From the NCBI RefSeq assembly GCF_034702125.1, contig NC_085872.1, positions 27,022,002-27,086,001 of the forward strand: a stretch of 64,000 nucleotides of DNA, given 5' to 3'. Under the pieces are notes generated by a model. That model made no database searches. It worked only from the letters and a program-made list of their open reading frames with translations, and was not told the origin of the DNA. Shown in pieces: positions 26,801-48,244 of the stretch; within the stretch, counting starts at the first letter, position 1, and every line of letters starts with the position of its first letter. The position numbers and the translations under genes were made by a program. Origin of the DNA: Engraulis encrasicolus. Its lineage: Eukaryota; Chordata; Actinopteri; Clupeiformes; Engraulidae.

Positions 26801-29395
26801 TACTCCATCAAAGTCACTGGTAGCTGTCTCCATGGAAACACTAGATTTAGAATGACATCGTCTGCAAAGCAATCATTCCAAAAGTGCACTCATGTACAAA
26901 TTGACAATAAAAAAATATTTATAGAACAGTAATTTAAACAATCACTCGGTCAAAAAGTTAACCAACTTAACCTACGTAGTGAATAGAGAAGTAGATTTGG
27001 AATTTCTACATTGCATTAAAATTGTTGAAAAACATTTTAAGTCCACAATGCCCACTTGCTCATGACTACTCTGTGCTTTGTAAATAAAACCACGAGTTGA
27101 TTGTCAGGCGTAGGCATAAGGGTTGGTGTTTCTATGCGAGTTACTACTGGAATCACGTTACAGTGTTTCCTCACTGCTTTAATACAGTAGCCTCAACTCA
27201 AACTCCAAAGACAGTTAGGACACCAAGCCCTAATTTTTAATTCATCTGATTACAGGGTTATGAATTTTGAATTAAACTTTTTTCATCACTTGCCAAATTT
27301 GGCAAGTAGTAGATGTTAATTGTACTAGCCAAACATACACACAATATCAGTCAAAGTGGCTGGTGAGATTTCTTTTCTACCAGCCAAACTGAGTTTTTAC
27401 CAGCTGTTGGCCAGTTGGCTGGTGTCAATTTAGTGCCCTGCCTGGTTCTATCATTATTAGTCTTTTCCTGAGAATGATCTCACTCATCACTTCCAAACTT
27501 CTTTTCGATATCTCATCCTGCTGATTTGAACGCAGGGCTACGTCATTTCACAACTTTTCAAACTGTATCATTATGCATTTTTAATTTATCATAGGCCTAT
27601 TTATTGTGACACACAATGACTTGCTATGTCACGCATGCACCATGTTATTGTGTGCTAGAGATGGGATCTAAATTTTTGTTTTCCCCTGGCTGCGCGAACC
27701 TGGCTGCCCACAACTCCACCTCTGATTGTTGGAAACCGCTGTCAGTCAAAAAAATTAGCTCACATGGTTGGCTGCCAGTGTCTGGCCCCTCCTCACAACA
27801 CCGTGTTTATAAACACGGTGAACCCAGGTGTAAAAATAATGTGAAGTAACATGAAAATATTTTCACTTTTTTCAGGTCAGAGTGGCATTGACTTCCTCTT
27901 TGACTTTGTGGAGATATTCTCAGGTGCTCATCCGACATTTGACGTGTTACCAGGCCGTCCTTCTGCCAGTAAGACAATCTACCAACCTACACCACTTGCA
28001 AGGCCACTACTATCTACATACAATTCAACATACAATTCAGCATACTACATGCACAAGTGAAATGTTCTTCAAATTCATTCCACAGATGAGAATGCCACAC
28101 TCCTCCTGACAGTGACAGGAGGCGACAGTGTCAGTGTTTCTGAGGTGTTGCTGGTTCCCACATCGGGAGCAGAGGCGGTGGACACAACAGTGGAGGAAAG
28201 AGAAGGAGGGGACTACCTGGTGACCGTGGATAGGCTGCCAGAGGGCGAGTTCAACATTCGGATCAGGGGGGAGACAAATGCAGCCTCCAGGGCGTCGCCG
28301 GATGTGTTTGAGAGACAGTCATCCACCCAGCTCAGGACGTCTAGTTTGACAGTGACAGTGGCTGTGAGTGACAGGGGCTGTACCCCCACCTGTATGAAAG
28401 CTGAAGGGTTTTATGAATCCTTGTATTCAATGAGTGTTTTGTGGTCCTTAACATTTTCTCTCAACAGGCATTGAATGAGACTTGGGAGCCTGGCACTAGC
28501 CTGACCGTCCCCTTCACCGTGTCCACTGATGCCACCGGTGACATCACCATCCGAGCGACCAACGATCGTGGGTTCACTTCTGAGTCCCCCGCCTCTCTGA
28601 CCCCGGGGACAGGAGGACAGGCTGAAGGCACGGTGACTCTGACCGCTCCGCCCAGCACCACCTCAGGCACTGACGTCACGCTCACCATCGAGGCGGAAAC
28701 TGCTGGGGCCACAGATTCCAACTACGCTGTGCTCCGCCTTTCAGTTGTTGCTGAGGTAACACTTTTGTTTAAACCTGTTTTTGGCCATTCTATTTCAGTT
28801 TTTGCCATTATGCAATTTCATTCTTAACACGTCACCCTTCACACACTAGCATTTCTGTGCACTTAGTTTCAGAAATCCCAACAGTTCATAAATGAATGTT
28901 GATCTCTTTCAGGTAACTGATCTATCCGCTCCCACATGTGACATAGTTGGTGTGAATGCAAACTGCTCTGGCAACTGCAGCCTGTCGTGGGAGTTACTGG
29001 CCAATCTGACGGACGGCGACGGCACGGGCATTGAGCGCATCACAGTCCGACAGGGCAGTGGCAGCCTCAACACAAGGGTGGTGACGGGTTCGGACGGCGT
29101 GAACGTGACTCTGGCCACCTACACGGCGTCCTGCTGCTCTGAGGAGGTGGAGCTGGTGGCTGTAGATGCTGTGGGGAATGTGGGGACCTGCTTCAGGTCC
29201 ATAGCCCCCCCACCCACCACGGCCACTTCTCCTACACCCACCACTACCACAATGCAAACTGAACCTGTGGCTGAGACAACTTGGGATGACATCGATGACA
29301 GCATCTTCTCGGGGCAGTCGAGAAGTCTGGACTTGGGTCTTCCACTCTGGCTCAGCCTGATTTCCTTCTGGCTCGTTGGGCCTCTGCAGCCCTGA
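20876..29395 (+). CDS. vwa7: von Willebrand factor A domain-containing protein 7-like
   Basis: Fifteen coding exons join in frame to 966 codons: 20876-21037, 21176-21442, 21577-21670, 21745-21870, 22067-22253, 22783-22955, 23020-23153, 23299-23415, 25529-25741, 26009-26141, 26667-26819, 27876-27968, 28086-28363, 28468-28755, 28913-29395. All introns are GT-AG. The order matches the VWA7 (G7c) family: an N-terminal region with MTETAIL and LQDFYSHSNWIELG (residues ~75-150), Cys-rich CGNCDGQNC and GKCSHGG, then a von Willebrand A domain (~235-345) with a MIDAS-like DTTGSMSDD and GGGDTPEMSLSGLQ and FLFTDAPAKD. C-terminal beta-rich domains follow, then a Thr/Pro stretch and a hydrophobic tail (LPLWLSLISFWLVGPL) suggesting a membrane or GPI anchor. 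Human VWA7 is about 890 aa. The start ATG 20876 is the first in frame, but its leader is short, so an upstream start is possible. Confidence 0.88.
21915..22035. repeat. A/T-rich low-complexity tract in intron 4 of the vwa7-like gene
   Basis: Runs of AAAAATAA, AATAATAAT and TTAATTTAAT between exons 4 and 5. Confidence 0.8.
22540..22750 (+). repeat. LINE/SINE 3'-end-like fragment upstream of exon 6
   Basis: Ends in 'gtatataagtgatataaaaa' and 'gacttgacttgac' units, resembling L2-type tails. It lies about 30 bp from the acceptor of exon 6 of the vwa7-like gene. Confidence 0.4.
23742..25235. mobile_element. Tc1/mariner-derived palindromic element in intron 8
   Basis: Ends 'agtacacccctt' (left) and 'aaggggtgtact' (right) begin long inverted repeats. 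'gcatagagtaagttt' near 24016 is mirrored near 25160, and the transposase-like block at 24180-24300 is mirrored at 24860-24990. The right copy reads YMVWGCM and NIGKLNF, a remnant of the Tc1 transposase block around the second catalytic aspartate. It is an inverted-duplicate remnant, not autonomous. Another MITE is inserted in its left arm. Confidence 0.75.
23770..23990. mobile_element. MITE nested in the Tc1 palindrome
   Basis: 'ggtatcactttacttgacg' at the left is mirrored by 'cgtcaagtaaagtgttatcc' at the right, with further inner symmetry ('cataagcatgtcattacag' and its complement). The word aatat flanks both sides. Removing it restores the arm symmetry of the surrounding Tc1 palindrome. Confidence 0.8.
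26454..26632 (+). mobile_element. tRNA-derived SINE with perfect target duplication
   Basis: The head contains RNA polymerase III promoter boxes: A-box-like 'tggccaaccgg' (26464-26474) and B box 'ggttcgattcc' (26506-26516). A non-tRNA body follows ('ccccatctctttcc', 'cttcctgtccacctctc', 'tgtcctgtcat'), as in widespread fish SINEs. The 12-bp duplication atatggagatga lies at 26442-26453 and 26633-26644 with no mismatch, so the insertion is recent. Its 3' end is 34 nt before exon 11 of the vwa7-like gene. Confidence 0.9.
27256..27441. mobile_element. Possible degraded hAT MITE in intron 11
   Basis: Starts 'cagggttatgaatttt' and ends 'aatttagtgccctg' with internal 'ttggctggt' words. The ends are only loosely complementary and the 8-bp flanks match at 5 of 8, so this is weak. 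Confidence 0.35.
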
Positions 29396-29427
29396 GTCTG
29401 ACTCATCACCTGATCCTCTGTTATCAT

Positions 29428-29711
29428 CAGGGCCGGATTAACGCACAGGCTAGATATGGCTGCAGCCTAGGGGCCCCCACCTACCAGGGGCTCCCTGAAT
29501 TGGCCAAAAGTGAAAATTTACAGAATTGTGACAAGATTGAAATGGTAAAAATTCATCTGTCATGTAAAATACAGTTGGTAGACATGTTATCCTTAATTCC
29601 TTACTCAAAATTATGACACTGTCTATTTAAAATAGTAGGGAAATTTGCCCTCCAGGGGGCCCCACAGGAACCCGTAGCCTAGGGGCCCCAGGTCATCTTA
29701 ATCTGTCCCTG
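29428..29711. mobile_element. hAT-type MITE just after the vwa7-like stop codon
   Basis: Starts 'cagggccggattaac' and ends 'ttaatctgtccctg', flanked by the perfect 8-bp duplication gttatcat (29420-29427 and 29712-29719). 'cctaggggcccc' words occur near both ends. It begins 33 bp after the stop codon and so probably lies in the 3' untranslated region. Confidence 0.9.
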
Positions 29712-30258
29712 GTTATCATGTGCCTGTTGCCTCATGTGACCAGCATCTCAGCACTACTAAACTTGTTTGAAGAAGTATTTTTTTTCATAAAGTTCCTTTA
29801 CTACTTTACTAAAAGCACATGCCGAAATTGTAAGGCTATTTTACGTCTCGATTAAAAATAAATACATAAATGAGCTTTCAGCACAATATTTTTTTTTACC
29901 TCCAAAGTGTGTCCCAAGTCTAGAAACTTCTTGATTGTAAGATGTTATTAATTATACAACACTAAGATGTGTCAACAATATATTGTAACAGGGCTGTGCC
30001 TGTTACTTCCTGTAACTGGGCATGCTGGGAGTGGGTTATTTTGCTAATGATAATAATCTATAATAGTCTTTAAACTGTTGTTTGGGAATGTTTAATGTAC
30101 TGGGGTGTTATTGTGTGCATGTTGTATTCACAATGTTGGGGTGGATGGGCTATGATATGTTTGCCACCATTGTAATGGAAATTGGGGCAGGGATACCCCT
30201 GGCTGTTAGCCTTGTGCTATGTTGCCTGTGAAATTAAACCTGAATCTACTTAAATTTA

Positions 30259-30746
30259 GGGTAACACTTTACTTGACGTGTTACTGCATAACACATTCAT
30301 AACAGCTGTTATAACGTCTACACGAAGAATTCATGATTGTGTCATAACACATTCATACCAAACCTTTCATGAACGTACCGTACAGAATGGCCGCAACTTG
30401 TCAAAATAAAAGTCAACAACCGCAAAAGAGAACCATACCCCTTTGGATCCACAGCGCCTTTCTGCATTGCATCTGGGTCAATGATTTCGACAGCGTCAAG
30501 GTGTAGAAGACCCATATTTGATTTATAATTTATAAGATTTGCATACCAGTAGGCTGGTTTTGTGATATTTTGCTAATTGGCATGTTGTTTACTTTTATTT
30601 TGACAAGTTGCGGCCATTCTCTACGCTAGGTTCATGAAAGGTTTGGTATGAATATGTTATGAAACAATCATGAATGCTTCGTGTAGACGTTATAACAGCT
30701 GTTATGAATGTGTTATGCAGTAACACGTCACGTAAAGTGTTACCCA
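30259..30746. mobile_element. MITE with ~150-bp inverted arms
   Basis: 'gggtaacactttacttgacg' at the left is mirrored by 'cgtcacgtaaagtgttaccc' at the right. Inside, 'agacgttataacagctgtta' and 'tgacaagttgcggccattct' also recur in both orientations. The word aattta flanks both sides. The ends are related to the MITEs at 23770 and 33492. Confidence 0.85.
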
Positions 30747-31395
30747 ATTTAGTAGTAGCAGTAGTATATCTACTGCTATGGTTCCTGATTTTGTCCCATT
30801 ATCAACATACTGTGATTGAAATTAAAGAATAAATTCCTGGTCTGATAACAAAACATAGCTTTTTTATTACATGTGTGTTCATGTTTTAACAGTGTAAGAC
30901 ATTGTTTGAAAAAAAAAACAAAGAGCGCAAAGGTTATGCACATGTAGGCACTAAAACAATCTATTCTAAAGGCCTGATCTTTGCACATAAAAAATTAGTA
31001 TAAAGAGGTAATTTGATGTCGGCAAATACACAGCCTAGCCACACACAAAAATGTCATCACCACAAAAAAATGTTTGCACACTAATATGAATTGCTTCAAT
31101 AAACGTCTGCAATGTCTGGACTGGAATTACGTATTTCCATCTAGCCTTGTATCGGGATCTTGAATTGTTGATGGTACACTATAAACACTGTGGAAAGCCT
31201 TTTTTATTTTTCATGTATCCTTCATTTATCTAGAACTGTCCCATTGAGACTGGGAGTCTCTTCTGCCAGGGAGTCCTGGTCTTCCAGCACATCCCAAAGA
31301 TTTTAATGAGGTTGAGCTCTGGACTGTGTGGTGGCCAATGCATGTGTAAATAGAAATGCACTCAGAGAGTGCAGACCTCCGCCAAGGAAGCTGTT

Positions 31396-31530
31396 TAATA
31401 GACTCTGCCCTGATGAAGGCCACTCCTTGGCCGAAACATGTTGGCGTTTTTAACTTTTCTACTATGATTTAGCCATTTAATAAAGCTATTTTAACTTTTT
31501 TGGGAAGAGTGCCTTGGATACCTCGTTTCT
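31396..31530 (+). mobile_element. Penelope-like retroelement end fragment
   Basis: Contains the hammerhead-like core, then 'aataaagctattttaact' and 'gaagagtgccttgga', features I know from the terminal repeats of vertebrate Penelope/Neptune elements. It interrupts another dispersed repeat: sequence at 31355-31395 and at 31676-31720 is found together, without this insert, at 38665-38775. Confidence 0.5.
31407..31445 (+). ncRNA. Hammerhead-ribozyme-like motif
   Basis: Order: stem I strand GCC (31407-31409), core CTGATGA (31410-31416), one extra A, helix II GGCC/GGCC (31418-31421 with 31429-31432, 7-nt loop), core GAAA (31433-31436), the palindrome ACATGT (31436-31441), putative cleavage after GTT (31440-31442), and stem I strand GGC (31443-31445). 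This is the type I layout described for Penelope elements, where very short stem III makes cleavage depend on dimers. The extra A before helix II departs from the consensus, so activity is uncertain. Confidence 0.45.
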
Positions 31531-32673
31531 TTGGCTTCCATTTTTTGACCAAAGAGCACCTTCAGACTACCAACCAAAAACATTGTAGCCCTCCAAACTT
31601 TTCCTATTGTTCCTGTTTGATAGGCCACTTGACTATGTTACTACACCCTAAATGTATTTTATACATGTATACATCTTTCTGTCTTGTCTTTGTGGAGTTA
31701 GAAACTAGAATGTGAAAATTGTCCCCATTCCACAGTGGTAAATCCTGGATTCGGACCATCTCCAAGCAGTAATCACTTGCTCCTTAAGTCATTTCCAACA
31801 ACTCCACTAAATTTCATCCAAATCAGTCCGTACTTCTTGAGTAATCCTGCTGACAGACAAACCAAAGCAACTGAAAACATTACCTACTCTTTAGCACCCT
31901 AAACCCCTCTGGTGCAATGACTTGCTTCTCATTTCTTTTACAACTACCTATGTCAGAAGACAGATCCTGGGGGTCATGTTAAAGAGATTTAGTCTGTTTA
32001 AGAAGGATCAAAATCATGGGCATCAGCAACTTTTGGTATTATAACTAGGTTCAGCTACAATATGTGTTCAAAGGAATACAGCAGACAGCATAGGCCTAGT
32101 GAATGAACAGACAATTCCACTAATCTTTTTTTCTTTCCTGATGGAACTGTAATATTCCAACATGACAATAACAAGACTTATTGGGCTGAAATTTGAAAGC
32201 ATGGTTCAGGGAGCATTAAACATCCTTTTTACACATGGATTGGCCACCACAGAGTCCAGACTTTACACATCGTTCAGGCTCTACCATTAATACAAGATTG
32301 TGATTAAAACTTAATACAACACTGGAAGGGAATAAATCCAGACAGACAATGTAGAAGTTTCTTGAAACAATACACCACCGATTCTGTGGCGTAAGCAACG
32401 CTAAAGGCGATACAACAACATATTAGTGTGTGTGACGATTATTTGTATGGCGACGGTTCTTTTTTGGCCACACTGTGTATCAATTTGGCATCTAAAGAGG
32501 TATTTGTAAAAGCATTTTAAAGAGGCAGTTTAGACAAAGATTGTATATGAAAAATCTACAATCATGTAATAAATGAGAACTGTGGTCCTTTTTCCTATCA
32601 CATCATCAAGTACATTCTATATTATAAAAAATAAAAGGTTCCAGTTGTCTAAATCTACTAAATAGTAAATTGT

Positions 32674-35600
32674 TTAACATACAATGTCAGCAGCAATCTT
32701 GTAACATAAAATACATTCAGAATCAGTGAATAGCACCACAGATGTCAGCTGAGCGTCACTCATGTACTTCTCTATGCTGGCTCCCAGGAGTTTCTCCATT
32801 TTGCACCACTGAAAAACAAGTGCAACATGAGTCATGACAAATGCATAATTACAAGGGCTGTAACGATACACTCAACTCACAATTCAGTTCCCATCAGTAT
32901 TTTTGACCTACGTCTCGATACACCCCATAATTTTTTAAATCTATGAAGACTATGATAGTGTCTAAGTAGAATAGGTCACACAAGCCTCCTAAATATAAAA
33001 TATATAAACATTTTAAAAACAGTAATGATGATGATTTGAAGCACCATCACATCATATCATGTGGCTGTTTTCTAGACTGAAAGGTAACAAAACTTTAAAG
33101 GGGTGCATCACGATACTGCCTTATTGCATTACGATACAGTATCTTGGCTGTGTGTATCGTGATTTCTGGGTTCGTTACAATATTATTACAGCTGTGATAA
33201 TTACCGTTATATTACTTTTATGTTCTTACACTCCAGGCATTCTTAGTATTTAAACTTGCACCATAACGAAAAGAACACTCATGCTTAAACTGTTTAAAAT
33301 CCTACGTTACAGGGCAAAAACCACATTGTCACAGCTATACTACCCATCATTTCAACAGATAGTATGCATGAATTGTATGGAAGATGCATCACACGCAATA
33401 CTATACGTACCATGAGGAACAGGGCAGCCATTTCACTCGCACCTCCTTTTCACCCTGTAGAGACATGCGCAAAAATAAAACATGAAAGTTTGGTAACACT
33501 TTATTTTAGGGATACATCTATTAGCACTAATACATACAATGTGCCTGTATAGGTAACTTGTAAGGCATGTACAAAGCAAAATCAAACATTTGTTAGGCAT
33601 GTATTCGCAAATGTCTTGTTCATGCACAATAAGGGATTTATTACCAACTTAACCTTAGTAAGGACCTAGTAGGCCTTAGCATTTGCTTAGTACATGCCTT
33701 ACAAGTTACTTATGCAGGCATTAAAGTGGTAGTTCGCTATTTTAGACATTAAGCCTTGTTTGTGTGACTTCTGGGGTGAAGTAGAGATGTTCTCATCACA
33801 ATTTTGACATTTGGTGCTGAACGGAGCATTTGGGTATTCAAGACTGCAGCCCCCCCACCTTTACATTGACTCCAATGAAGCACTCAAGCAATCGATCATA
33901 AAATGGCATTAAACTTTCGTTTGCAGAGACATGAAACTCACCGAGTGGTCAGAGGTGGGTAGCGATACGTTGGCTCGAAAATCACTGCGAAATACGCTTT
34001 AAGAGAAGATATATTCATTATTGTCCGTCTTCATTGATTGTATGGGTTTGACTAGTATTACTCCGCGCGACCGGAAATGGGGGTGCGTTTGTTTACGTTA
34101 CTATCTATGGTTTGTATGCAAGCTGTAGTTTTTGTAGCCAGTCCCGCTCAAAGATAGCCGTTCTACCTCGCTCCTTGATGTCTACATAAACAACACACTA
34201 TCGCTACCTACTGGCTGGATGTCTACTGCTATTCAACGGCGTCTGGGGAAAAATAGGTCCGCCAAATGCTAAACAACAGTTAGAAGGCATATTTCGCTGC
34301 AATTTTCGGGTCAATTTATCGCTGTCTACCACTGACCACACGGTGAGTTCCATGTCTTCTCAAACAAAAGTTTAATGCCATTTTATAATAGATTGCTTGA
34401 GTGCTCTATTGGAGTCAATGTAAAGGTGGGGGGCTGCAGTCTTGGATACCCAAATGCTCCGTTCAGCACCAAATGTCAAAATTGTGATGAGAACATCTCT
34501 ACTTCACCCCAGAAGTCACACAAACAGGGCTTAATGTCTAAAATAGCGAACTACCACTTTAACATTGTATGTATTAGTGCTTATAGATGTATCCCTAAAA
34601 TAAAGTGTTACCTAAAGTTTTGCACTGGATGTTCATTTAGTAAGCAAGTCACTAATATTCTGCAAAAACTTTTTCACTTACATCTTCTGCAGTTCTTTTC
34701 TTGATGATTTTTTCGACAGGATGTAGGGCACCGTTGACATCATGTTTACACTCTGAAATAAAACAAGAAGGCTGTATGAGAATCTAGAAGTACTCCTCAC
34801 ACACACACTTAATACAAGCAATAACCAAAAATTGACAATAGTCCTAATTTTAAATTCACCTGCTTCTATCACTCTTCGTCTTTTCCTGGGAATCTCCTCA
34901 CTCGTCAGTTCAAAACTTCTTCTTGATACATCATCCTCTCCCTGGAGATCTGTCCGCTCATCAGCTTTAGATTTCATGTCAGACGAGCCCCCTTTAATCC
35001 CACCTTCAGGCAGCAAATCATTTGGAGTCTCCTCTGCGACAGAGTCAGCTGGTTTCTGCTGCAAGGATCTTGCGTCCACAATTGCGAAGCTAGTATCCAG
35101 TTTCTCAGAAGTGTCCTCAGCTCCGCTCTGGGTGCTTGACGTGGCTGTGCAGCTCCTGAGTGGAAGATTTGGTGACGACGACGGTGATGGGGTCCATCCT
35201 GCCGAGCGACCACGGCGCCTTGCAACAGGAGATGCTGCCTGGTCAGATTCCGGAACAGCGCTGGCTTCAATATCCTGCACTGCAGCGGCTGACGGCTCCA
35301 AGGACATACTGGAGCTCAGTTCTTCAGGACCAGCAGAGGCTGTTGTCTGCAGGTTCATCTGCGGAGGCTGCTGCACGAGGGACAGTTGCTTTTCTGCCGA
35401 CTCGACTTGATCACCGAGGAGACCTCCATTCATGCTGTTGAGGAGGTCATCAAACTGTACAGAAGGGCGGACGCCTGAGGGGTTGTTTGGCGCACCCAAA
35501 GACTCCAGGCATTCTTTTTTTTGGCCAGGAGAAAGAAAAAAAAGGGAGTTATCATATGCCATAAAGGGAGCCTAGTCATTTCAGGACTCATGCAAGTCAA

Positions 35601-38600
35601 TATCCGCACATCCTACAATAATGAAGTTTTACAGATGTTTTACCAACTAAGAAAGTTCTTACTCCAAAAGGCATTATTTGTCTTTGTCACATTGCTTATC
35701 TCTGTAAGACAAGATCTTCAGACAAGATACTTACGCATTTTAAACATTTGCCAAGTAGGAAAGTCTTTAAGATGCACCCTTATTTTTCTATATTTTGCAC
35801 GTGGTTCATCTTGAGTTTGGAGGACCTGAGCAGGGCTTGTGATCTGTTGTGGGGGTGAAAAGGGGGTGAAGTTCTCCCTACCAGGAGGTCGGCCATGCTG
35901 CTGAGGCAGCGGGGGCAGGTCAGCCTGGTCTGACTCTGAAGTGGGGCAGAAATCTGGATCCTCAATGCTGTCCTCCATCTCCTCCTCCTCCTCCTCCTCC
36001 TCCTCGTCCTCCTCTTCTTCCCATTCACTATGGTGCTGTTCTGCTGTGGTAGTGGCAGCTCTTGCCCGCAGGTTCATCTGATGGGGCTGCCGGTCCCCTG
36101 CAGCCTCTGCTGACCTCACTGGAGAAGTCAGCAGCTCCTGCTGCTCGTCTGTCACACTGCTCAACATTATCTGGTACTCTTTGGCGACCCACAGGAAGAA
36201 AAAAACAAAACACAAAACAAATGAAATATTTAAATATATATATATATATATATTTTTTTTTTTTATTTAATATTAAAATATTTCGAGGTGCAAGAGATTA
36301 GTGTTCATTTGTCTCCTTCGAAACGCAACTCATTCACAGGAAACACTACATGAAGTACGAGAGTATTGGCATTGTTGTGATGATTCTTACCATATGGCTG
36401 CACTGCTGGCTCCATATTCACTTGGTTCTCTACTTTCACCATCGTACACGCCAGGGATAGTTCCATGGCCTGTGAAATCGAATTGAATTCAAATGATAAA
36501 TAAATGCATTATAAATGCATTATTATGAATTGCATGTAAAAGTTATACAAAGAGTAGAGACCATTTTCTCTCGCACATGAAATAAAAAGGGGCACATTTC
36601 CACAGATGGTGACTCAACAATTTAATGCAGTTCCAGTCACTCATCTGGCATTGCACCCCATTACGTTGAACTTCGGCTTTTTTTCGCACACCTCAGCTGG
36701 CAGGTGCGTCGGAGATGGCACCATGGGTTACTCAGCAATAGTTCAAAGAAACTCCCGCACACTGACCATTTCGCTGTTCTTTCTTTAATAAACGACGTTT
36801 CGGTACTAGACCTTCATCCGGGCCGGATGAAGGTCTAGTACCGAAACGTCCTTTATTAAAGAAAGAACAGCGAAATGGTCAGTGTGCGGGAGTTTCTTTG
36901 AACTATTGCACCCCATTAGAAAGACTTCAAGGGAGCCAGAAATAGTTTGAAAACAGTTCGGAGAAAAAAAGCAGAAAAAGTGTCAATGCATCGTTCCTTG
37001 CCATATTAATGAGGCGCCATTGTTGTCTGAATCAAACAGACACTACTCTGCTACGCGTCACATAAATGAAAATTCCAGCTGCAATCCTACGTGTTTAGTC
37101 CTAGTCCATCCCCTCGGGTTGATTCCCAAGGGCAGTGGTTCTCAACATTTTTTTGAACAAACGCCCCCTTGACCTCATCATAAGCCTACCAAAGCCCCTT
37201 GACATTCATAACCCTGCCAATGACCCCCTTTGTATTGAAAATCAAAACAGACTATGCCCCCCAATGGTAACTAAGCCCCACCCCCACTCAGTTGTATCCT
37301 TCTCAATGCCCCCCCCTAGAGCTCCCCAACGCCCCCTGGGGGGCTGTAGCACCCCCGTTGAGAAACACTGCCCTAGAGGTATGGGTGGAGCTTGGTGGAA
37401 CTGCTTTCATCGGTCAAGACTCAGGTAACTGGTGTGTGTAGTGTAAAGAAATCCCGCACACTGTCCATTCCACCAACAAACTTTAATACAATGTTTCGGT
37501 CATTCGACCTTCTTCAGGTAAAGTTACAAACACAATTCAAATTCAGGTTCAGGTTTGAATTGTGTTTGTAACTTTACCTGAAGAAGGTCGGATGACCGAA
37601 ACGTTGTATTAAAGTTTGTTGGTGGAATGGACAGTGTGCGGGATTTCTTTACACTTGAATGACAAGCCCACTGGGATGACATCCTACGCAACTGCCCAAC
37701 TACAGAGGTGTGCAAAAGCGTCTTTGTTGACCTGGTGTGTGTAGAAAGTATATTGAAAAATGTCAAACACCATTTTCTGGTACACATAGGTGCTCGTTTA
37801 CAAACATTTGTGTTGTGAGGAGGGGCAAGATGCTACACAGCCAACCGTGTGAGCTCATTTTTTGACCAACGGCAGTTTTCAACAATCAGAGGTTGGACAG
37901 TGCGCAGCCAGGGATTGTTTACAAACGGTAGACCCATGTATACATACCTCAGTTTTCTCTGGAGCAGGTTGCCTGTGGGCCAGTGCATTATGCAACGGCT
38001 CCTGTTGTTCCCCAACTTGATCACTGGGCCGATGCTGATCCTGATGTGCATTTGGAGCACACGGCTGCTCCCGTTCCTCCAATCTCTGTGTGAGGGTTTC
38101 CACTTGTTTTCTTGTTTTCATCAACTCGTTTTCTGTGTCCATGTAGATGTGGTCAAATATGGAAACAATTTCTGAGGTGGTTTTCACCATCAGAGACTCC
38201 ATGAGGGCCAGTATCTTGGTCCTGAACTGGACGAGCTTGGCCGGAGGTTCGGGTTTCGTTGGTTTTGGTTGCGGGGGGACTTGCAGGGGGACTTGCAGGT
38301 CTTGCAGGTTGTGACACTGGTTTTCATACTGTTTACACTGAAAAGACACGTGACAAATGACAAGAGGACATTGTTATTTCCTGCAGTAGGATAACTCCTC
38401 TTAGCTTTCGCCAGATTGTTTGATGGAGTCAACAGTCGCCTTTCGCCCAGGCTACGGTAACATGAGGGCAAGGGGCAAGCGTGTCTAAGGCAAAACACAA
38501 CTCCACAATTTGGTAAAAGCACAACTATTGTTCATCAATATAAGCTACTGGTAACTAGTCATAGTAACAGCCGATTGTATTCTCACCAAATACACACAAC

Positions 38601-41600
38601 CCTGTCATCACGTTGCAGTGCTCACAGACATGAATGAGCATACCGCAATCATTTGAAACTAGACACACACAGAGAGCGCAGACCTCCACCAAGGAAGCTG
38701 CTAGATAGAACATTAGACTATGTGTTGCACCCTGTCTTTCTGCCTTCTTTTTGTGGAGGTAGAAACTGAAATGTTTTGCCCTCTCCCGGAATTCAATTTG
38801 TGGTCACTAGGGGCGTCTAGATTTATAGGCCAGCAATGGTGAAGAATCTTTAACAGACCGACGTGAACGAAAGCATAACCTCCTTGGCAGAGGTAATCAG
38901 GCAACACATGTATGCAGGGTATCAACAGGTTCGACCAAGTGAAAATTAAGACATTTTAATACCCTTTTCTAAATAAATGAAGACCAACCTGTAAGATCAT
39001 ATACAAGAAAGTACAGCTTAACATCCAATTGGATGTTTTACACTACTAGTTAACATCCCCTAAAAATGACAATGCCTAATTGCATTAAAGATGATTACAT
39101 TACACATCAAATGCTTTGTCCTTGTCTGCTTTGGTCTGTTTGCTTGGTTGGGTTTAGTTTTCATTTTGTCTGATTTGTTCCTAACACAGTGTAGTTGTGA
39201 ATAAATAAATAATAATAAAAAAATAACTGCATTGCAAAAACTGCAGTTTCACTGTACTGCTAGTATAGTTAAAGACAGAATGCAATGGTTTTGACACAAA
39301 AACACTGCAATCCTGCAAACATTTTTCCGATCTTCTAGCGTCGTTTATGGTGAGCCTGGCCAAATTGTTGCCTCATTTTCCTGGTCTTAGCTGATAGGAG
39401 TGGCACCAAATGTGGTTTTCTGCTGCTGTAGCCCATTTGCCTCAAGATTTGATGTGCTGTGTAATCTGGGATTTTCTTATGCAAACCTCGGTTGTAATGA
39501 GTGGTTATCTAACTTAATGTTGCCTTTGTATCAGCTCCAAGCAGTCTGGCCATTATCCTCAGACCTCTGCCATCAACAAGGCATTTTTTGTCTTTTTCGC
39601 ACCATTGTTTGTAAACCCTAGAAATGGTAATGTGTAAATATCCCAGTAGATCAGTCTTTTCAGAAATATTCAAATCAAGCCTTTCATCACCAATAGCCAT
39701 GCCATGTTCAAAGTCATTTATATAGCCTTTCTTTCCCATTATGATACCCGGTTTGAACTGCATAAGATCATCTCGACCATGTCTACATGCACAAATGCAG
39801 AGTTGCCCCCCATGTGATCGGCTGATCAGAAGTTTGCCTCAATGAACATTTGTAACAGGTGTTCCTAATGAAGTGGCCGGTGAGTGCAAATCACCAATTG
39901 AGCCAAAACTGGCTGTTTGAAAAGTTGTGTCAGAGACGAGCTAAATGCATTACAATAGAGAATCTTTGCTTGTGTCCCTTGATGATTGGTACCATGCACT
40001 GCACATTGTGCGTCAGCAGGTGGCGACAAAGCGTAAGTACAATAAGTAAGAATAATGTAGGCCTACCATGGGCAGACGTAAAATTCTCTCATAGGCCTAT
40101 TTCATGCAGACGCAGTTACAAACACAATAATAGTTTTACGGATTCTATTATAAACCTTGCATGTGCACAATCAGTTTCAAAAGCAGCAAAGGCTCAGCCA
40201 CAACAACGGCGAATAAACAGAAAACAAGTAAGCCTACTTCGAACAAAGTCCTGTGCTGTCGCATGGCGAAAAACAGACACGGGCGTGGAGTTGCTCGTTT
40301 TTTTGGTTTTGTTTTGTTTTTTCCACGACTGACTTTTTGTCATTATAGTAGTTGCTGCCACCAACTCATTTTTAAGCATTGGGTTAGACTAAATGCTGCA
40401 ACTCAACACATTATCTTGATTAATCTTCCAGCAAGAAAATGGTTGAACTAGCTCCCATATTACCTCGGCCTCCGGAGTAGTCGTAGAGCCGCACACACCT
40501 TGGATGCTAGGTTGAGCAGAGCAAAACATTCTGAGCTGCCTCTGCTGAGCTTTCGCGTAGGCAACATGTTTTGAGCTGAGCATATGGGAATCCAGCGCCT
40601 TCCTCCCCATCGTGCTTAGCTTAAAAATTTTACAGCACAACGCGCAGATGGCCACGCGGGTATCTGTGGGTACAGCCCTGAGCCACAAGGAATATTTCGG
40701 GTCTTCCAGCCATTTCGGACTAAACCTGCACTTTCCCATCTCTCCGAACAGATGTTAGTTAACATACACAGACCTATGAACATTCAACTCCGCCAGTCTA
40801 ACAACGACGGGTGCTCGTAAAGTCCAAGCAATGGTTGCGCGAAGGTTCTCGCGCCACGCGTGGCTACCCCACCCCCATTCACACACGGTTCAACAAATAG
40901 TCTAGGTGACGGTTCATCTCTAAATTTGCCTAAGCACATGTAAGGCATTTAGATTGAAATGTTAAGACAAAATAAGACTTTTCAAGGCCTTATTTGACCA
41001 AATGAAAAGTAATACAATTTAAGACATTTCAAGGACGGGTCCGCGGCCAGCTGTGTTCTTCATAGTTTTCTGCAGTGTATTTAAATGGCATACATGTTAA
41101 ATTTTGTCCTTTTTCTTTTCATAGTTTATTTCTAAAATGTATGCTGGCCATCGTAATCTTTTCCAGGAATATTCACGAGGTGCTGGCCACATAGAAAACA
41201 CCATTGCGACATTCTCCCCACCACGTTTAAGTGTGCAGCACGCCCACATTCCATTTTCCCCGCTGCTGCGCGCGCTGGAATTTTGTTTTGATCTTGTAGC
41301 AGCACATGCATGCAGTTGGGTGGGTGCAATTATGTTTAGCCAGCCCTATGTATATTTAATTCGATATTATTTCATGCATTCCCCTCGGGATCATTAAACC
41401 ACTGCCCTTGGAGACTATATAGGAATACTACCTCCAATGTTCTCTGATGCTTTCGTTTGAGGTGCTTGATCATGGCCGTCGTGCTGCTGTGAAAAGCCAT
41501 ATCTGCTTTGCAGTGCACACATTGCACTATATTTTCAGTCCTGCTACGTGTGAAATGGTCCCAAACTAAGGACGTTTTTCTTGTTTGCCTCCTGGCGCCG

Positions 41601-42278
41601 TTATTTGCCGCCATCGTTACGCATGGAAGGTTTTTAAGTGAACAACTTGCCCCTTGGATATCCTGTCTGAAGTGTCCGCTAGTTATAAACATCCGGGTAA
41701 ACGACGTGCAAAGGTATCTCCTCTATGGCACAATACAAAGGAACACTCGCTGTGGTCTAGTTCTACCACAGCCCTTCTAAGTGGTTCAACACACCAGAGG
41801 TCCGACAATTCAATAGCCCTTGGTGTTCTGTGAGAATTTCATCAATAAGTCCATTACTGGCACAGACATGAGACTGAAATTATGGTTCTAATGTCAGACG
41901 ATGTTAATTAGCCTACATTTTAGTGTTCTGATTTCCATGCTTAAATACATTTTGAAATGTCAGAATGTTGCATAGTAGCAGTAGCCTACAGCATGCATAT
42001 TATTTTCAAAGAATGGCCGGATAACCAACAATTGTTAACTGTCTTTCCAAATAGTCGCCCACCTTCATCCGTCTAAAAAGTTCTGGGTGTCTGTCGCGCA
42101 GATGGGACATTAAATTGGTGGTGTTCCCTCCTTTTGCCGCGATTCTCCTTCCACATGTTTTGCAGATAGGATGGCGATCTTCAACCAGCCGTCCAGTGGC
42201 ATCTTTCCTATACCCAAAGAATTCCCACACTTCTGATTTCCTCTTGGCCGGTCTATACAGCTCAATCGGCGCAGACAT
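32674..42278 (-). CDS. Leader coiled-coil / acidic protein with three alternative zinc-finger first exons
   Basis: Five common exons (minus strand): 38337-37948, 36176-35735, 35513-34860, 34752-34682, 32808-32674, ending TAA. All junctions are GT-AG and keep frame (563 aa). The first common exon has no usable ATG; it opens after 'cttttcag' in phase 0. Upstream are three ATG exons each ending in phase 0 at a donor (42278-42063, 41614-41432, 40739-40464), giving proteins of 635, 624 or 655 aa. Common residues ~36-90 match the leader of the neighbouring C2H2 genes (ME-S-L spacing, KQVETL-RLEER). Residues ~181-200 are almost pure Glu/Asp, encoded by a CTC repeat. Later are Ser/Pro-rich segments and a basic patch PRKRRRV. 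No C2H2 array is present. A nuclear DNA-binding regulator is likely, but the function is unproven and the choice of first exon is inferred. Confidence 0.65.
32858..33185. mobile_element. Probable MITE with 'tgtaacga' ends
   Basis: 'gggctgtaacgatacactc' at the left and 'gttcgttacaatatt' at the right are partly complementary, and 'cgatac' words recur between them. This resembles a common fish MITE, but the ends are degraded. It lies in the last intron of the leader/acidic gene. Confidence 0.45.
33492..34612. mobile_element. MITE with ~80-bp inverted ends, opened by a second element
   Basis: 'ggtaacactttattttaggg' at the left is mirrored at 34593-34612, and the symmetry continues inward ('agcactaatacatacaatgt', 'taacttgtaaggcatgtac'). 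The word aaagttt lies on each side. The inner TTAA-flanked element interrupts its right arm at 33721. Confidence 0.85.
33725..34558. mobile_element. TTAA-flanked foldback element (Kolobok- or piggyBac-like)
   Basis: Flanked by TTAA (33721-33724, 34559-34562). Ends 'agtggtagttcgctatttta' and the complement; the two arms stay complementary for roughly 200 bp (landmarks 'acttctggggtgaagtagag', 'atttgggtatccaagactgc' with one difference, 'aatggcattaaactt'). The ~400-bp centre has no coding sequence. Confidence 0.85.
36220..36270. repeat. (TA)n and poly-T low-complexity tract
   Basis: About ten TA units followed by a T run in the intron between common exons 1 and 2. Confidence 0.85.
36736..36908. 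repeat. Foldback palindrome (copy 2 of 3) with hammerhead-like cores
   Basis: Arms of ~84 bp ('caatagttcaaagaaactcc' outward end) meet at 'ccgggccgg' with one mismatch found in the arms. Each arm carries CGGATGA-A-GGT-loop-ACC-GAAAC (right arm 36824-36847), a hammerhead-like layout in which the essential U4 of CUGAUGA is replaced, so it is probably inactive. Confidence 0.9.
37133..37370. mobile_element. hAT-like MITE with CAGTGGTTCTCAAC end
   Basis: Starts 'cagtggttctcaacat' and ends 'gttgagaaacactg', with C-rich interior ('acgcccccttgac', 'aacgccccctgggg'). The flanks cccaaggg and ccctagag match at 6 of 8 positions, a worn hAT duplication. It lies between two of the palindromes. Confidence 0.7.
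37441..37654. repeat. Foldback palindrome (copy 3 of 3) with hammerhead-like cores
   Basis: Arms 37441-37541 and 37554-37654, 101 bp each, two mismatches noted. The right arm reads UAC (37575-37577), CTGAAGA (37578-37584), A, GGTC/GACC helix II, GAAA (37598-37601), ACGTT, then GTA (37606-37608) pairing with UAC. One core base (U7-side) and the extra A differ from the hammerhead consensus. The outer ends share 'agtgtgcggga' with copy 2. Confidence 0.9.
38655..38905. repeat. Dispersed repeat with 'cagacctccaccaaggaag' (RTE/SINE-like)
   Basis: Shares 'gcagacctccnccaaggaag' and 'gtggaggtagaaact'-type words with 31355-31395 and 31676-31720, and ends near 38880 with the complement-like 'ataacctccttggcagagg'. 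Similar sequence is common in fish genomes, but the family is not certain. Confidence 0.5.
39375..39886 (-). mobile_element. Tc1-like transposon, 5' half
   Basis: The minus strand begins at the terminal repeat 'cactcaccggccacttcat' type end (39886) and encodes a transposase start: MGKKGYINDFEHGMAIG, SEKTDLLGYLHITISRVYKQ, WCEK, KCLVDGRGLRIMARL (39763-39509). These are the paired-type helix-turn-helix of Tc1 transposases. The frame breaks soon after and the catalytic half is absent. The same family's 3' half appears at 45740-46165. Confidence 0.85.
40464..40739 (-). CDS. First exon candidate C: hAT-type C2H2-like zinc finger
   Basis: 92 codons from ATG 40739 to a GAG/GTAATA donor, phase 0. The N-terminus MGKCRFSPKWLEDPKYSLWL followed by CALC (Cys32, Cys35) and SHMLSSKH (His52, His58) belongs to the finger found at the start of several hAT-derived vertebrate proteins. 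A Ser/Thr-rich linker follows. It is not followed by a transposase. The stretch upstream (40800-40860) is CpG-rich ('gcgcgaaggttctcgcgcc'). Confidence 0.6.
41432..41614 (-). CDS. First exon candidate B: BED zinc finger
   Basis: 61 codons from ATG 41614 to a GAG/GTAGTA donor. BED signature: SLVWDHF (Trp18), CVHC (Cys32, Cys35), TTAMIKHLKRKH (His51, His56). It ends in phase 0. The sequence differs strongly from candidate A, so this is not a recent duplicate. An upstream start without ATG is possible in the open frame but less likely. Confidence 0.65.
42063..42278 (-). CDS. First exon candidate A: BED zinc finger
   Basis: 72 codons from ATG 42278 to an AAG/GTGGGC donor. It has the BED layout: aromatic start SEVWEFFGY (Trp18), CKTC (Cys39, Cys42) and HLRDRH (His59, His64), as in ZBED proteins and hAT transposases. 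It ends in phase 0, fitting the common exon at 38337. On its 5' side are an NRF1-like palindrome 'acgcatgcgt' (42355-42364) and ETS-like GGAA words (42376-42390), consistent with a TATA-less promoter. Confidence 0.65.
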
Positions 42279-42399
42279 ACTTTCCTACAACGAGCAATTT
42301 CAACACGCTTGTTGATATAATTAACTGCAAAACATTGCCAGACCTCCTTCAGACACGCATGCGTAATAACTCGCCACTTCCTTTTCCGGTCAACAGGAG

Positions 42400-43230
42400 G
42401 ACCATAAAAGGAATATGATGATGGGAATATGTGAGTTCGACCTCTATTCTAATTTCTCTGGTTCGACATGTTTCAGGTCAGGTCAGAGCATAGAACTGGA
42501 TCTAGTTGGTTAACATTCACATGGAACTCAAAATCGTGTATCATGAATATCCATAAAACACAAAGATGCATGTACCATTTCCTTTTACCCTGGCCTACTA
42601 CATGCTGCTTCTCCCTGGAGTAGAAGCACACTGGCCTTCTGATTAGAAAGAAACAATTACTTACTGTATTGTTCTAGGCCTACATGTCGCAGTGTCCCCT
42701 GTTTACGGGAAAGCTTTATTTTTTTTTAAGTCTCAACTTTATTTTCATGTCATGTAGCCTATTATTGTTTGATTTTACCATTATTTCTTCACATGCAGAA
42801 TTAGGCCCTGAAAACACTGGTTGGTTTGTTGGGTGATGTCATGAGTGTTTCTATGTTGTAGTAAAAAAAAGGTCTTACGACACACTCAATTGGGAGTCCA
42901 CCATGCCCAAGGGCCAAAGCCAAGAGACTGCAAGTGCGACCTCCTCGAGGACATTTATACATGTGGATGTGTGGACGCACTATGCGGAGGATGTGCACTA
43001 TGCATTCTGTTCTGTCTTGTACCCCCCCTCCAAAAATAAATAAATATAATAAACAAATTATAATAAATAAATAAACAACCCACTATCATTTTGTTTATAC
43101 AAATTCAGTATTTGTATTTGCACTACAACTTTTTTACATAGCCTAATATCATTTAAAATATACACACACCTTAATACATAATTCACCACTGCACATTAAG
43201 TGTTTTTTCCCTTTCTTTTTGTCTTTCTTC
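42400..43230. other. Intergenic stretch without a recognised gene
   Basis: AT-rich with one TAGGCCTA octamer (42675) and A/T-rich runs near 43030-43090. Nothing coding is recognised. Confidence 0.5.
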
Positions 43231-43974
43231 TTACATATAATTCTGACACATATTATGTCCACTGTTAGCTGATGAATGACTTCTTTCCATCGACATATCC
43301 TGGAACACAAGAAGATATAACCGTTAGATAATAATCATGGAATTGCAAAAAAGGACAAGCACATTTTGCCTAAATACGGTAGGCCAAAACCGACTTACTG
43401 CTTTCTCCTTTACTTAGTTGCATTTTTTTGTTAATCATTTGTGGTTGTTGCTTCTAATACTGATGTTATTATTGTGATTTTAATGTGAAAACTGCAATGT
43501 GAAAACTGCACCTTTGCTCTCCTCCTTAGATAATCCCTTCTGTTGTGAAGCATTTTCGTACAGCGCACAATCACCTCCATTTCCCTTCCAGAAAGCTGAG
43601 GCATTGCTGAGATTATCTGTGTACATCGAAGGAAACATGTTTTGTTAGCTCTGTTCCTCTTGTATAAAATATCTTTAACTCAAAGACAACTGTGTGGATG
43701 TTGTGCATCAACAAACCTTAGCTGTTATTGGGCCCCAATCAATATTCCTGCTGTATGACGCCCTTTGCCATACTTGGGACTGCATCAGAATTTGCCTGGC
43801 TACACTCTGTCAAACATCACATTCATTAGCCGTGCTGAGGTGCACTTTAAAGCAAGCATGGGAAAACCATGTGAACATGCAAAGGCGGATACTTACACTA
43901 AATGTCCTTTGTCTGCTTTTGGGTCTCCTCTTTGCTGCTTGCATGGTTGTCAGTCTGGAAACGTTTTGAATAAC
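43231..43974 (-). CDS. Possible small three-exon gene, 73 aa, unknown
   Basis: Minus-strand exons 43974-43897 (ATG 43944), 43616-43512, 43299-43231 (TAA). Acceptors 'ttcgatgtacacag' and 'cttgtgttccag', donors GTAAGT and GTGCAG, all in phase 0. The product is MQAAKRRPKSRQRTFS, then a stretch with PQLSGREMEVIVRCTKML and DYLRRRAK, then a polar tail ending NYM. The N-terminus is strongly basic (possible nuclear signal). An acceptor-like 'cttttgcag' precedes exon 1, so a non-coding first exon may exist. It matches no family I know and may be a chance or decayed structure. Confidence 0.35.
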
Positions 43975-44886
43975 CTGCAAAAGACAACAAGAGCAGTCAG
44001 ACAGTGACTCAGTCCCCTGCCTAAGATGGACGTCATGTGTGTTTCACATCTCAAAACTTTGCTGCAAACAGACAAAAAAAGACATGGGGGCAAGTAGTAG
44101 GCCATTCTATTACCAAATCACCCCATGAATACTTTAATACAGCAATCAATCAGTTCTGGATTAATTGTCATTCTCTTGTTTTTTTTAAAACATTTCCATA
44201 AGTGATCATGACTGTGGGCTTACATTACATTTGGATTTGAATGATATACAGTACATGTAGGTGTTTCAATGTTGCTGAATATTTTAAGAACTTTTTATGA
44301 AGATATGTTACACTTTGACGTTAAGTGATGCTGTGATCAGTTCCCTTGATGCACAGTACGTGTGCAGACTGCAGAGGCATTTGGGTTTTCTGACTTGACA
44401 ACAGTCAGAGCATCTGACCATGCCAACATGGTGTAGGTGTAGACCAAAAATAGGGAGGCACAGTCTTTCTTTAAATAAGAATGCTGCCATTGCCCCTCAA
44501 ACAAAATGTCATAATTATCACAGATCAAGACCAGTTAGGAAAGGTGAGTGGATTAAAAATAAAATAAAAAAGAAACTCCCACATCTAGTGTTAAATATCG
44601 TTATGCATAATACAAGGAGATTGACCAAAACTTCAAACTACTGTTGAATAAATAGTTCATACCACCAACCCAAATCGAGCCACCTCTGCATAGTTTCCTA
44701 ATTTTAACATGTTTTCACACAAAATAGTCGTTTATGTCCAGTGGTAAGAACATGAATGTTACATAATTTGCAAATAGCAGTCATTGGTGAAAGTTTGGTA
44801 GAAGCTCAAAATCTCTGTTTTGAGGACTAATAGCGTCAGTTTGTATGGAGGGAACTCGTATTCCTCGCGGTCCAAATACTCATCAC
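43975..44886. other. Intergenic stretch without a recognised gene
   Basis: Only short spurious frames on both strands; no repeat with clear ends is visible. Confidence 0.5.
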
Positions 44887-45005
44887 CAGGGCCCTAAATG
44901 AAACACCAGCCAAATGCTGGTGAAATTTTTACTAAGCACTTTGACCCATTAGTGAGTGCCTGTTTGGCTAGTAAGGTTAAGATAAATAGTTCATTTAGAG
45001 CCCTG
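44887..45005. mobile_element. 119-bp hAT-type MITE
   Basis: Starts 'cagggccctaaatgaa' and ends 'ttcatttagagccctg', flanked by the perfect 8-bp duplication ctcatcac (44879-44886, 45006-45013). Confidence 0.9.
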
Positions 45006-45739
45006 CTCATCACCCATCATGCCACACGTGGTGTCGGGACCAAGTGAACAAGAACTGGTCCACCAAAGTCACACTAACATACTGAGTGGGTGGGAACTGG
45101 GAGGGCAGTGGTACAGTGTCGATATGTTTAAAATGGATGTTTCCTGGATTCGAGGTGATAATCTGAAACAAATATTACTTGCATCAGAAAATAGAATTGC
45201 GTTTCTTTGGTACCTTGCTGCTAAACAATATACATTACACTTTACAAACACTTTGTAAGGTAGACCTCTATACTGATTGGTAACAGAAACCAGCCAACCA
45301 CTAATGCATTTATAAATGCATATAAAAAATATCAAGGCTAAGTAAAGATAAAGTTCAACTGAAGCACCATAATAGGAATCAAGTCATTTGACTTTGAATG
45401 TGGTGAGGTGTCATATTGATTTGATTTGGTGAGGTGCCATATCATGCCAACAGGTGGTGAAAGTATGTCACAAACTGCTGAACAATCAGGGACAGAGAAT
45501 GAATACACACCAGGCACAAAAATAAACAAACACTTGAGAATCTTAAATTACCGCTTGTTACAACAGAAATATGCAGAGTATTGGGACACACCAAACTTAG
45601 AGGCTACAACAGAACAACACTCAAGAGTACCACGTCTGCTCACAAGGTTAGCTTGGACACAGCCTGCCTTCTGTCAACAGTTCATGATGCTGATGCTGAT
45701 GTAGATTAGAAGAATAGGGTGGGGTTGGGAACATGTCCT

Positions 45740-46165
45740 GGATCAACTGAGCAAAGGTTAATCACCACCGCCTACCTGAGTGTTGCTGCTGACCATATCC
45801 ATCCCTTTATGATCACAGTGGACAGAATGGCATCTTCTCATGGATACTTCATGAAAGAAATGCAGCTCGATGCAAAGCTCAGATCATCACACACTGCTTT
45901 CTTAAACATGACAAATGTTCAGTGTACTCCAGGGGAGCTCCACACCACACGCACCAGACCTGAATCCTCATGTGTCTTTTTGGGAGGGCAGGGAGATTTG
46001 CATCATGCAACCAGCATATCTGCCACAGCTGTTTGACATTTCAATATGAATCCAAATCTCTGTGGCACTTTTGTCTAATAGTTTGTGGAATCTACAACAA
46101 CCAGAGGTAAGGCAGTCCTGAAGGCAAATTGGGGTCTAACCTGGTCTTTGCAAGTTATGCCAAAT
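45740..46165 (+). mobile_element. Tc1-like transposon, decayed 3' half of transposase
   Basis: The plus strand keeps AYLSVAADHIHPFMITVD, AFLNM and, near the end, KAVLKANWGLTW, matching the catalytic half and C-terminus of the Tc1 family whose 5' half lies at 39375-39886. The aspartate-containing blocks are eroded and frames shift several times. Confidence 0.7.
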
Positions 46166-46505: not shown

Positions 46506-46953
46506 TCACAGGCAGATCCCACTAGGCCTGCTGTGTCGTCGCAGGTGAACTCTCAGGTTGCTGGAGCGAGTGAACCTCATGCCACAGTAAGCACAGCCGA
46601 ACACCTTCTCTCGTGTGTGGATGTTCTGGTGCTGGTTGAAGTTGCTCTGCCGCGCAAAGCCCTTTCCACAGTGGTTGCAGACGTAGGGCTTTTCGCCCGA
46701 GTGGTGCCTAAGGTGGATCTTGAGCTCAAAGTTATACACAAAGCTTTTGTCACAGTGGGGGCAGCTAAGAGGCTTCTTCCCTGTGTGGGTGAGCATGTGG
46801 GCCTTGAGGTGGCACAGGTGCTGGAAGCCTCTGCCGCACTGGGTGCACAGGTGGCGCTTGTCAGTGTGGAGCTTCAGGTGAGCTTTGAGGTACTTGTAGG
46901 ACGAGAACCTCTTGGGACAAAAGGGGCAGCTAAAAGACTTTTCCTGACGGTAG

Positions 46954-46992
<39 letters not shown>

Positions 46993-48244
46993 GACACGGG
47001 CGGGTTTTCGCTCAACACTAAGCTACTATTAGGCATCGGGTATCCAACAACGCCCTGAACCTGTACATCAGATCCAACTGACTTGTCAGGGAAATCTGCC
47101 GTTACCGGATTTAAGAGCAGGGGCGGAACCTGACTGCTCGGCTCCGCCAATGTGTCCAACTTAACAGAATATGACATTACGTACGTGTCTGCCTCCTGTG
47201 ATGCAAGAGGGGAGATATTGTTAATGGTCTCTACCTGCATCTCCTCTCGGTTCCAGGTTCCTCTGGAGAGTGTCTCAGATGGATTCGCCATGTCTTGACA
47301 AAGCTCTGCGTCCTCACTTCTCGGGTTCCACACAGGTAAGGCCTCCTCCTCCTCTTTCACAAGAGACGGGACTGCCTCTGCCTTAAAGTCCAGTGGGGCG
47401 GAGGGGGGAGCCAAGTCACTGCTGGAGCTGCTGTGGCGACTGCTGCCTGGTAGAGCTACCATGGAGAGCAGGGCTGGCTGTGCTACATGTGATTCCGGAA
47501 TGCTCTCTTGTGCATGAGGGGATAGAACCCCAGCAGGTTCTGTGTTCCTGTTTCTCTGTGTGGCGATGAAGGAGGGATCACACTCCTGGATTATTGTGGA
47601 TCCAGTTGAAATAGGGCTCTGTAATGTCCACTGCTTGTCTGGCGTTGAAGATAGGGATGCCACACTGTCCTCTTTGTGTGCACTGACAGAGGCTACACAA
47701 GGCTTGGTTTCATGCGCCTCTGTCGAGTTCCACACCTCCTCTTGAAGAAGCTGTCCACCCTGGCGGTGCTCACTGACACTGAGGCTTAAACACAGAGTGT
47801 CTGCCTCTGCGCGCGCACACGCACACACACACACACACACACACAGATAATAAAAAACAGTAGTTAGTACTGACATGAAGCATTCTGTGCGTAACAAGAA
47901 TATATTTATGTAATATTGCCTAGAACTACCAAGGCACAGCAATATTCATACTAGTCATATTTACCAGCGTGTGTCTCACTTTGGGTGCCATCGCTTGACG
48001 CACCAGGTCTTCCGCAGTTAATACACCTCGACCGCTTCACTTTTTCACGCTCCTTTTCCCTTAGTTTCAGCTCAGACAGCTGTAATTTCAAGCGCAGCAT
48101 CTCTACTTCTTGCCTTCCACGACCCACTTCCTCCAAAAAGCTGTCTTCCACTAGCCTAGTAATCTCGTACATAGCTGACTTGAGGACAGTCTCCATTACG
48201 CTGGAGAGCTGAGCCTGAAAAGTGAGCACAAGGGCATTTGGCAT
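46506..48244 (-). CDS. C2H2 zinc-finger protein with leader coiled coil, five fingers
   Basis: Two coding exons, 48244-47965 and 47806-46506 (526 aa), joined in phase 1. Start MPNALVLTFQ; an upstream TTG frame is ignored. Residues ~5-60 form the leader (LTFQAQLSSVMETVLKSAM, VEDSFLEEV, EVEMLRLKL) that probably dimerises, followed by CINCG. The middle is acidic and Ser/Pro-rich with 12 consecutive Gln encoded by CAG (46955-46990). From ~383 five C2H2 fingers: CPFC...HLKLH, CTQC...HMLTH, CPHC...HLRHH, CNHC...HQNIH, CAYC...HLRRH. Helix residues -1,2,3,6 read S-K-Y-A, H-C-H-A, Y-F-E-I, R-S-N-Q, R-S-N-V. A nuclear transcription factor is expected. The acceptor of exon 2 follows a TG repeat instead of a pyrimidine tract. 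Confidence 0.85.
46955..46990 (-). repeat. (CAG)12 polyglutamine tract in the five-finger gene
   Basis: An uninterrupted trinucleotide run on the coding strand, giving 12 Gln just before the first finger. Confidence 0.95.
47807..47845. repeat. (CA)n/(TG)n microsatellite at a splice acceptor
   Basis: On the gene strand this is a TG run followed by 'cgtgtgcgcgcgcag', immediately before the coding exon at 47806. Confidence 0.9.

Follow-up and report, generated by a model that had tools for sequence, protein, structure and literature searches.

In a 64,000-nucleotide window of the anchovy Engraulis encrasicolus genome (assembly GCF_034702125.1, contig NC_085872.1, positions 27,022,002–27,086,001 of the forward strand), three exons, A, B and C, each carry their own ATG, a zinc finger or finger-like segment and a phase-0 GT donor at their end, upstream of a seven-exon body, b1 to b7. 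We propose, on features of the sequence and at about even chances, that together they form a single gene whose first coding exon is one of three alternatives, so that the promoter used would set the finger while the body remained constant. In our judgement it is highly probable that this gene has a real first exon among A, B and C. The arrangement itself fits alternative first exons, with at least two candidate start exons that have their own ATG and share a compatible phase. All coordinates are window positions, and the ten exons all lie on the minus strand. An initial annotation of this DNA had described three ATG exons on one strand ending in phase 0 at GT, and its coordinates, ATGs, phases and donors all agreed with ours (donor scores come from a position table of approximate vertebrate frequencies and have relative value only):

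42063–42278, minus strand: exon A, ATG and BED zinc finger; 216 bases, 72 codons; phase-0 donor AAG/GTGGGC, score 8.16
41432–41614, minus strand: exon B, ATG and BED zinc finger; 183 bases, 61 codons; phase-0 donor GAG/GTAGTA, score 3.51
40464–40739, minus strand: exon C, ATG and finger-like segment; 276 bases, 92 codons; phase-0 donor GAG/GTAATA, score 6.08

A second in-frame ATG of exon B, at 41692, gives an open reading frame (ORF) of 87 codons. The body that the three exons precede reads as a spliced frame of 572 amino acids ending at a stop at 32772, with six introns that are all GT-AG and phases that match at each join:

37948–38337, minus strand: b1, helical leader; opens in phase 0 after TTTTCAG
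36391–36469, minus strand: b2, exon of the spliced frame
35735–36178, minus strand: b3, acidic Glu/Asp run; opens in phase 1
34860–35513, minus strand: b4, Ser/Pro-rich with a basic KRRR stretch at its end; opens in phase 1
34682–34752, minus strand: b5; opens in phase 1
33411–33454, minus strand: b6, start of a chromodomain-like end (Pfam Chromo E = 0.0063, below the cut-off)
32772–32808, minus strand: b7, rest of the chromodomain-like segment and the stop TAG, within the spliced frame

The C-terminal segment falls short of the chromodomain family, with 16.8 bits against a Pfam Chromo cut-off of 25.1, a match covering positions 3–35 of the 53 in the profile, and E = 0.56 in a PDB search. The acceptor of b1 is one of just two that passed a simple test in 37900–40400. 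The introns of the body gene also hold long inverted repeats with near-identical arms, resembling miniature inverted-repeat transposable elements, at about 36740–36900 and 37445–37650 (by eye).

Further up the same strand lie three tandem C2H2 zinc-finger genes (46509–48244, 53203–55088 and 59288–61401), which have in common an unnamed leader exon that begins at 48244, 55088 and 61401, respectively. Among 1620 ORF pieces of the window, the b1 leader matched a profile of these leaders with an hmmsearch E of 0.0044 (best domain 0.0069; the next best piece reached 0.24), at 20–23% identity, which places b1, as a borderline case, as a probable diverged relative of the three. In a structure prediction that used an alignment of the four leaders, residues 33–90 formed a single helix of 58 residues, with mean predicted local distance difference test (pLDDT) values of 90–98 over ten-residue blocks. 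A helix of this length fits a coiled coil, through which the leader may pair. The initial annotation had held that the exon at 38337 opens in phase 0 without a usable ATG, and this was confirmed: the in-frame ATGs of b1 are at codons 46, 50, 66 and 73 only, and the first of them lies inside the predicted helix. We conclude that a start exon further upstream, ending in phase 0, is most likely required, because a start at codon 46 would cut into the helix behind Phe38, a residue invariant in the four leaders, and because an ATG sits directly before the same leader in all three neighbouring genes.

Candidates for that start exon are few. On the minus strand of 38338–43200, the 4.9 kb upstream of b1, A, B and C were the only ORFs to begin with ATG, span 60 codons or more and end at a phase-0 donor whose score equals or exceeds that of exon B. 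Three shorter ORFs with a phase-0 donor, of 20, 23 and 30 codons, also occur there (those below 20 codons were not counted). In 300 dinucleotide shuffles, which set the chance level for ORF and finger counts alike, the mean number of long ORFs was 0.31, and three or more appeared in 0.7% of shuffles. The finger pattern matched four times on this strand, in A, B and C and once at 38680, outside any such ORF, compared with a shuffle mean of 0.23 and three or more matches in 0 of 300. We favor alternative first exons in part because the only long phase-0 ATG ORFs before b1 all hold finger patterns.

Counted in the translated sequences, the finger spacing is Cx2C-x16-H-x4-H in A, Cx2C-x15-H-x4-H in B and Cx2C-x16-H-x5-H in C. 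The initial annotation gave all three exons a BED or hAT-type finger, which held for two of them: against a Pfam zf-BED cut-off of 20.6 bits, exon A scored 34.8 (E = 1.6e-8) and exon B 44.8 (E = 1.3e-11), so that both are BED fingers. Exon A also matched solved BED fingers in the PDB, those of ZBED1 (2ct5; 7.8e-9) and ZBED2 (7.3e-4). The PDB search with exon B returned no match, and exon B carries in addition a trace of DUF659 (E = 0.08, below its cut-off). Exon C would count as a hAT-type finger solely by its Cys/His spacing; its best E in the PDB search was 3.4, and a structure predicted from its single sequence, with no alignment, was all-helical at a pLDDT of 58.7, too poor to be used. With 26% identity between A and B over 65 residues, and an E above 1 for the match of C to A, the three exons are not recent duplicates of one another. 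A comparison of 38000–44000 with the window gave, besides the self match, a single match, of 38646–38709 to 31336–31402, outside the exons, and no tandem repeats overlap A, B or C. The NCBIfam search returned nothing above cut-off, and the Rfam search 0 matches at the gathering score. Searches of viral contigs (with A, B, C and b1) and prokaryote contigs (with A plus b1) gave pattern matches, none of them confirmed; a fish gene is not expected there.

We considered the finger ORFs as starts of hAT elements. Pfam, at E up to 1, recognized no hAT domain in 38341–43000 or 43001–46000 (six frames each) or in the minus frames of 29501–32700 and 32701–38338, although short or very diverged remnants could escape such a scan. 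The scan does not support this possibility, and the finger ORFs are thus not the beginnings of intact or recognizable hAT elements. By the same scan, with no hAT transposase or dimerization region on the minus strand of 29501–46000, the gene does not fall among ZBED genes. The sole transposase trace in these scans was of Tc1 type (HTH_Tnp_Tc3_2, 2.5e-6, below the cut-off), in a bystander:

39347–39840, minus strand: broken fragment of a Tc1-like transposase, within the C–b1 intron; Pfam part about 39347–39544, the rest by eye

The finger exons lie together in a stretch in which CpG is preserved, and promoter-type words stand close to their starts. The words are seven consensus sequences, selected after the sequence had been read, and the factors named in the following rows are those to which we take them to correspond:

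40000–42600, no strand: CpG-preserved stretch spanning A, B and C; CpG observed/expected ratio 0.76, flanks 0.43 and 0.33
42356–42389, minus strand: NRF1-like GCATGCG and ETS-like CCGGAA, about 80–110 bases upstream of the ATG of A
41607–41614, minus strand: YY1-like ATGGCGGC, at the ATG of exon B
40847–40853, minus strand: Kaiso-like CGCGAGA, about 110 bases upstream of the ATG of C

A word of the transcription start site (TSS) type lies within 200 bases of the ATG in three of three finger exons. This support for finger starts is modest, because 25% of CpG-matched windows (16% of all windows) contain one or more of these seven words and because the words were picked post hoc. A codon-usage measure based on 2086 local training codons (three of the pieces are whole stop-to-stop ORFs and may hold some non-coding codons) ranked A, B and C above 51, 54 and 55 of 57 non-genic ORFs, with 6, 3 and 2 scoring equal or higher. 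We regard this as mild support, as regional composition could give the same ranks.

Several observations weigh against three alternative first exons. Frame fit alone is weak evidence, because the plus strand of the same region also has two donor-ending ORFs, neither with a finger match; it is the coincidence of frame fit with fingers that is the strong part. Exon C reached the cut-off of no Pfam family and cannot be placed among BED or hAT-type fingers by this measure, its best match being zf-C2H2_2 (E = 0.039, 14.6 bits; cut-off 26.9), followed by BED (E = 0.084, 13.4 bits; cut-off 20.6) and the C17orf113 finger (E = 0.68, 10.3 bits; cut-off 29.5), the last over nearly the whole profile length. 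The donor of exon B is weak, with 13% of all GTs on the strand scoring equally well. The strongest donor of exon C, after 40499, scores 9.27 (versus 6.08) in phase 1, and joined to b1 it would produce GTG TAA, an immediate stop (by reading). In none of A, B and C did codon usage favor frame 0 over the shifted ones; in b1 it did. The CpG level of 40000–42600 is equalled by 19 of 614 blocks of the same size in the window, in which several other CpG-rich patches have no assigned start, and all seven words are absent from the starts of the three neighbouring C2H2 leaders. When one C2H2 leader was compared with the body by pairwise BLASTP, the two leaders were not aligned. The swappable-finger gene of the initial annotation is therefore upheld in part: a complete body, a likely upstream start, finger exons as the only long candidates and the lack of a recognized hAT transposase speak for it, and the weak donor of B, the phase of the best donor of C and the codon usage speak against it.

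The same evidence bears on four other explanations. The main rival holds that a single BED exon is the true start, A being the best candidate, and that the other two are former or failed captures or rare transcripts without the body. It gains from exon A having the best phase-0 donor and an ETS/NRF1-like pair upstream, from the weak donor of B and from the best donor of C being out of phase; yet exon B is the better BED match and has a YY1-like start, and all three ORFs are intact with phase-0 AG/GT ends, which decay would be expected to break. We consider a single start unlikely, though far from negligible. Alternatively, the body could begin at some other short, unrecognized first exon, with the finger ORFs in separate transcripts or in nothing. 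The phase-0 candidates of 20, 23 and 30 codons, and the uncounted ones below 20, leave room for this; however, the only long candidates carry fingers and lie directly upstream on the matching strand, and no hAT transposase was recognized on the minus strand of 29.5–46 kb for the fingers to join, so we regard it as improbable.

The remaining two explanations keep the fingers within the gene and arrange them differently. Exon C might use its phase-1 donor to reach b3, b4 or b5, all of which open in phase 1, to yield a leaderless isoform, while A and B give the form with the leader. The strength of that donor favors such a splice, but b1 and b2 would have to be skipped, and we give it a slim chance. 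Slimmer still is the chance that the fingers act in series, with A splicing to an exon that contains B and/or C and exon skipping giving proteins with two or three fingers. The open frame of B extends back beyond its ATG to 41722, and an AG stands just before the ATG of A, as a serial arrangement would have it; against this, no good pyrimidine tract accompanies the AGs before B and C (judged by eye, unscored), each exon has its own ATG, and TSS-type words are near all three.

Returning to three alternative first exons, we infer their promoters, splicing, the use of at least two of them, and the origin, dimerization and function of the products, as follows. Exons A, B and C would each have their own promoter inside the 2.6-kb CpG-preserved stretch, and each, with a single BED/hAT-like finger, would splice in phase 0 to the same b1–b7 body, such that the choice of promoter would become the cell's choice of DNA target. 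The constant parts would provide partner binding through the leader and chromatin contact through the C-terminus, and leader pairing could bring two different fingers together. The most likely origin of the fingers would be capture from hAT-type transposases, of which the remaining parts have been lost. Somewhat more tentatively than for the exon arrangement itself, we suggest a vertebrate regulatory gene that holds three transposon fingers as promoter-plus-first-exon units, with promoter choice swapping the specificity of a dimerizing, chromatin-reading body. If this is true, one fish gene could make three differently aimed proteins, and a vertebrate gene would have gained exchangeable DNA-binding domains by repeatedly capturing transposon fingers to serve as alternative first exons, which would provide a natural test of how the choice of promoter redirects a single effector body. 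The common leader would also tie this BED-finger gene to the tandem fish C2H2 family and would explain the origin of the body.

Two further features of the window flank this gene. Directly upstream of exon A, at 43234–43985 on the minus strand, a four-exon reading made by eye has fitting splice sites; it starts with an ATG at 43944, reaches a stop near 43234 and encodes about 102 residues, and its Pfam match is at chance level only. On the plus strand, 24002–29500 holds a neighbouring gene with a GBD_Hemicentin domain (Pfam 5.2e-29) and a VWA-like match below the cut-off in one frame, the former being the galactose-binding-like domain of hemicentin.

The proposed layout can be compared with several known systems. 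The protocadherin and UGT1A genes have a row of alternative first exons, with their own promoters, ahead of constant exons, as we propose here; their variable exons encode cell-surface ectodomains or enzyme halves rather than DNA-binding domains and are tandem duplicates, unlike the diverged A and B. In Drosophila, mod(mdg4), like lola, combines a constant part with exchangeable zinc-finger exons. For lola, at least 20 isoforms are described, with a common N-terminal BTB region and unique C-terminal exons, most of them with zinc fingers (PMC1947980). Lola and the anchovy gene would thus both be single genes with a constant interaction region and exchangeable zinc fingers. The fingers of lola are C-terminal and joined by cis- and trans-splicing, whereas those of the anchovy gene would be N-terminal first exons, with BED in two of three fingers, a helical leader and a chromo-like end; if real, the anchovy gene would be a 5' mirror image of lola built from domesticated transposon parts. 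Host-transposase fusions, reportedly described by Cosby et al. 2021, share with our proposal the uptake of transposase DNA-binding domains by a host gene. In such fusions, KRABINER among them, these domains are captured through alternative splicing, and the accessible text does not describe several alternative captures per gene (PMC8616336); here there would be three 5' fingers, with no hAT transposase recognized.

Genes of the ZBED group share the BED finger, which is of hAT origin (PMC3606216, PMC10027918). ZBED proteins are described as typically having a transposase region and a hAT dimerization region (PMC9859435, PMC10027918), unrecognized in the anchovy gene, and truncated exceptions are also mentioned (PMC10027918). 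The leader can be compared with the FiNZ-ZNF genes, zinc-finger genes of fish in which a separate exon encodes a conserved N-terminal sequence; FiNZ has 28 amino acids and is reported as unique to cyprinids (PMC10547256), in contrast to the predicted 58-residue helix of b1, a distinction drawn from the description rather than from sequence. Alternative promoters with distinct starting exons are also recorded for transcription factor genes in a C. elegans survey (PMC3685541). Among the matches listed in full-text searches of the open-access literature, judged by title and start of abstract and with subscription papers mostly outside their reach, we found no gene of this layout. If expressed, the anchovy gene would represent a new form of kinds already known.

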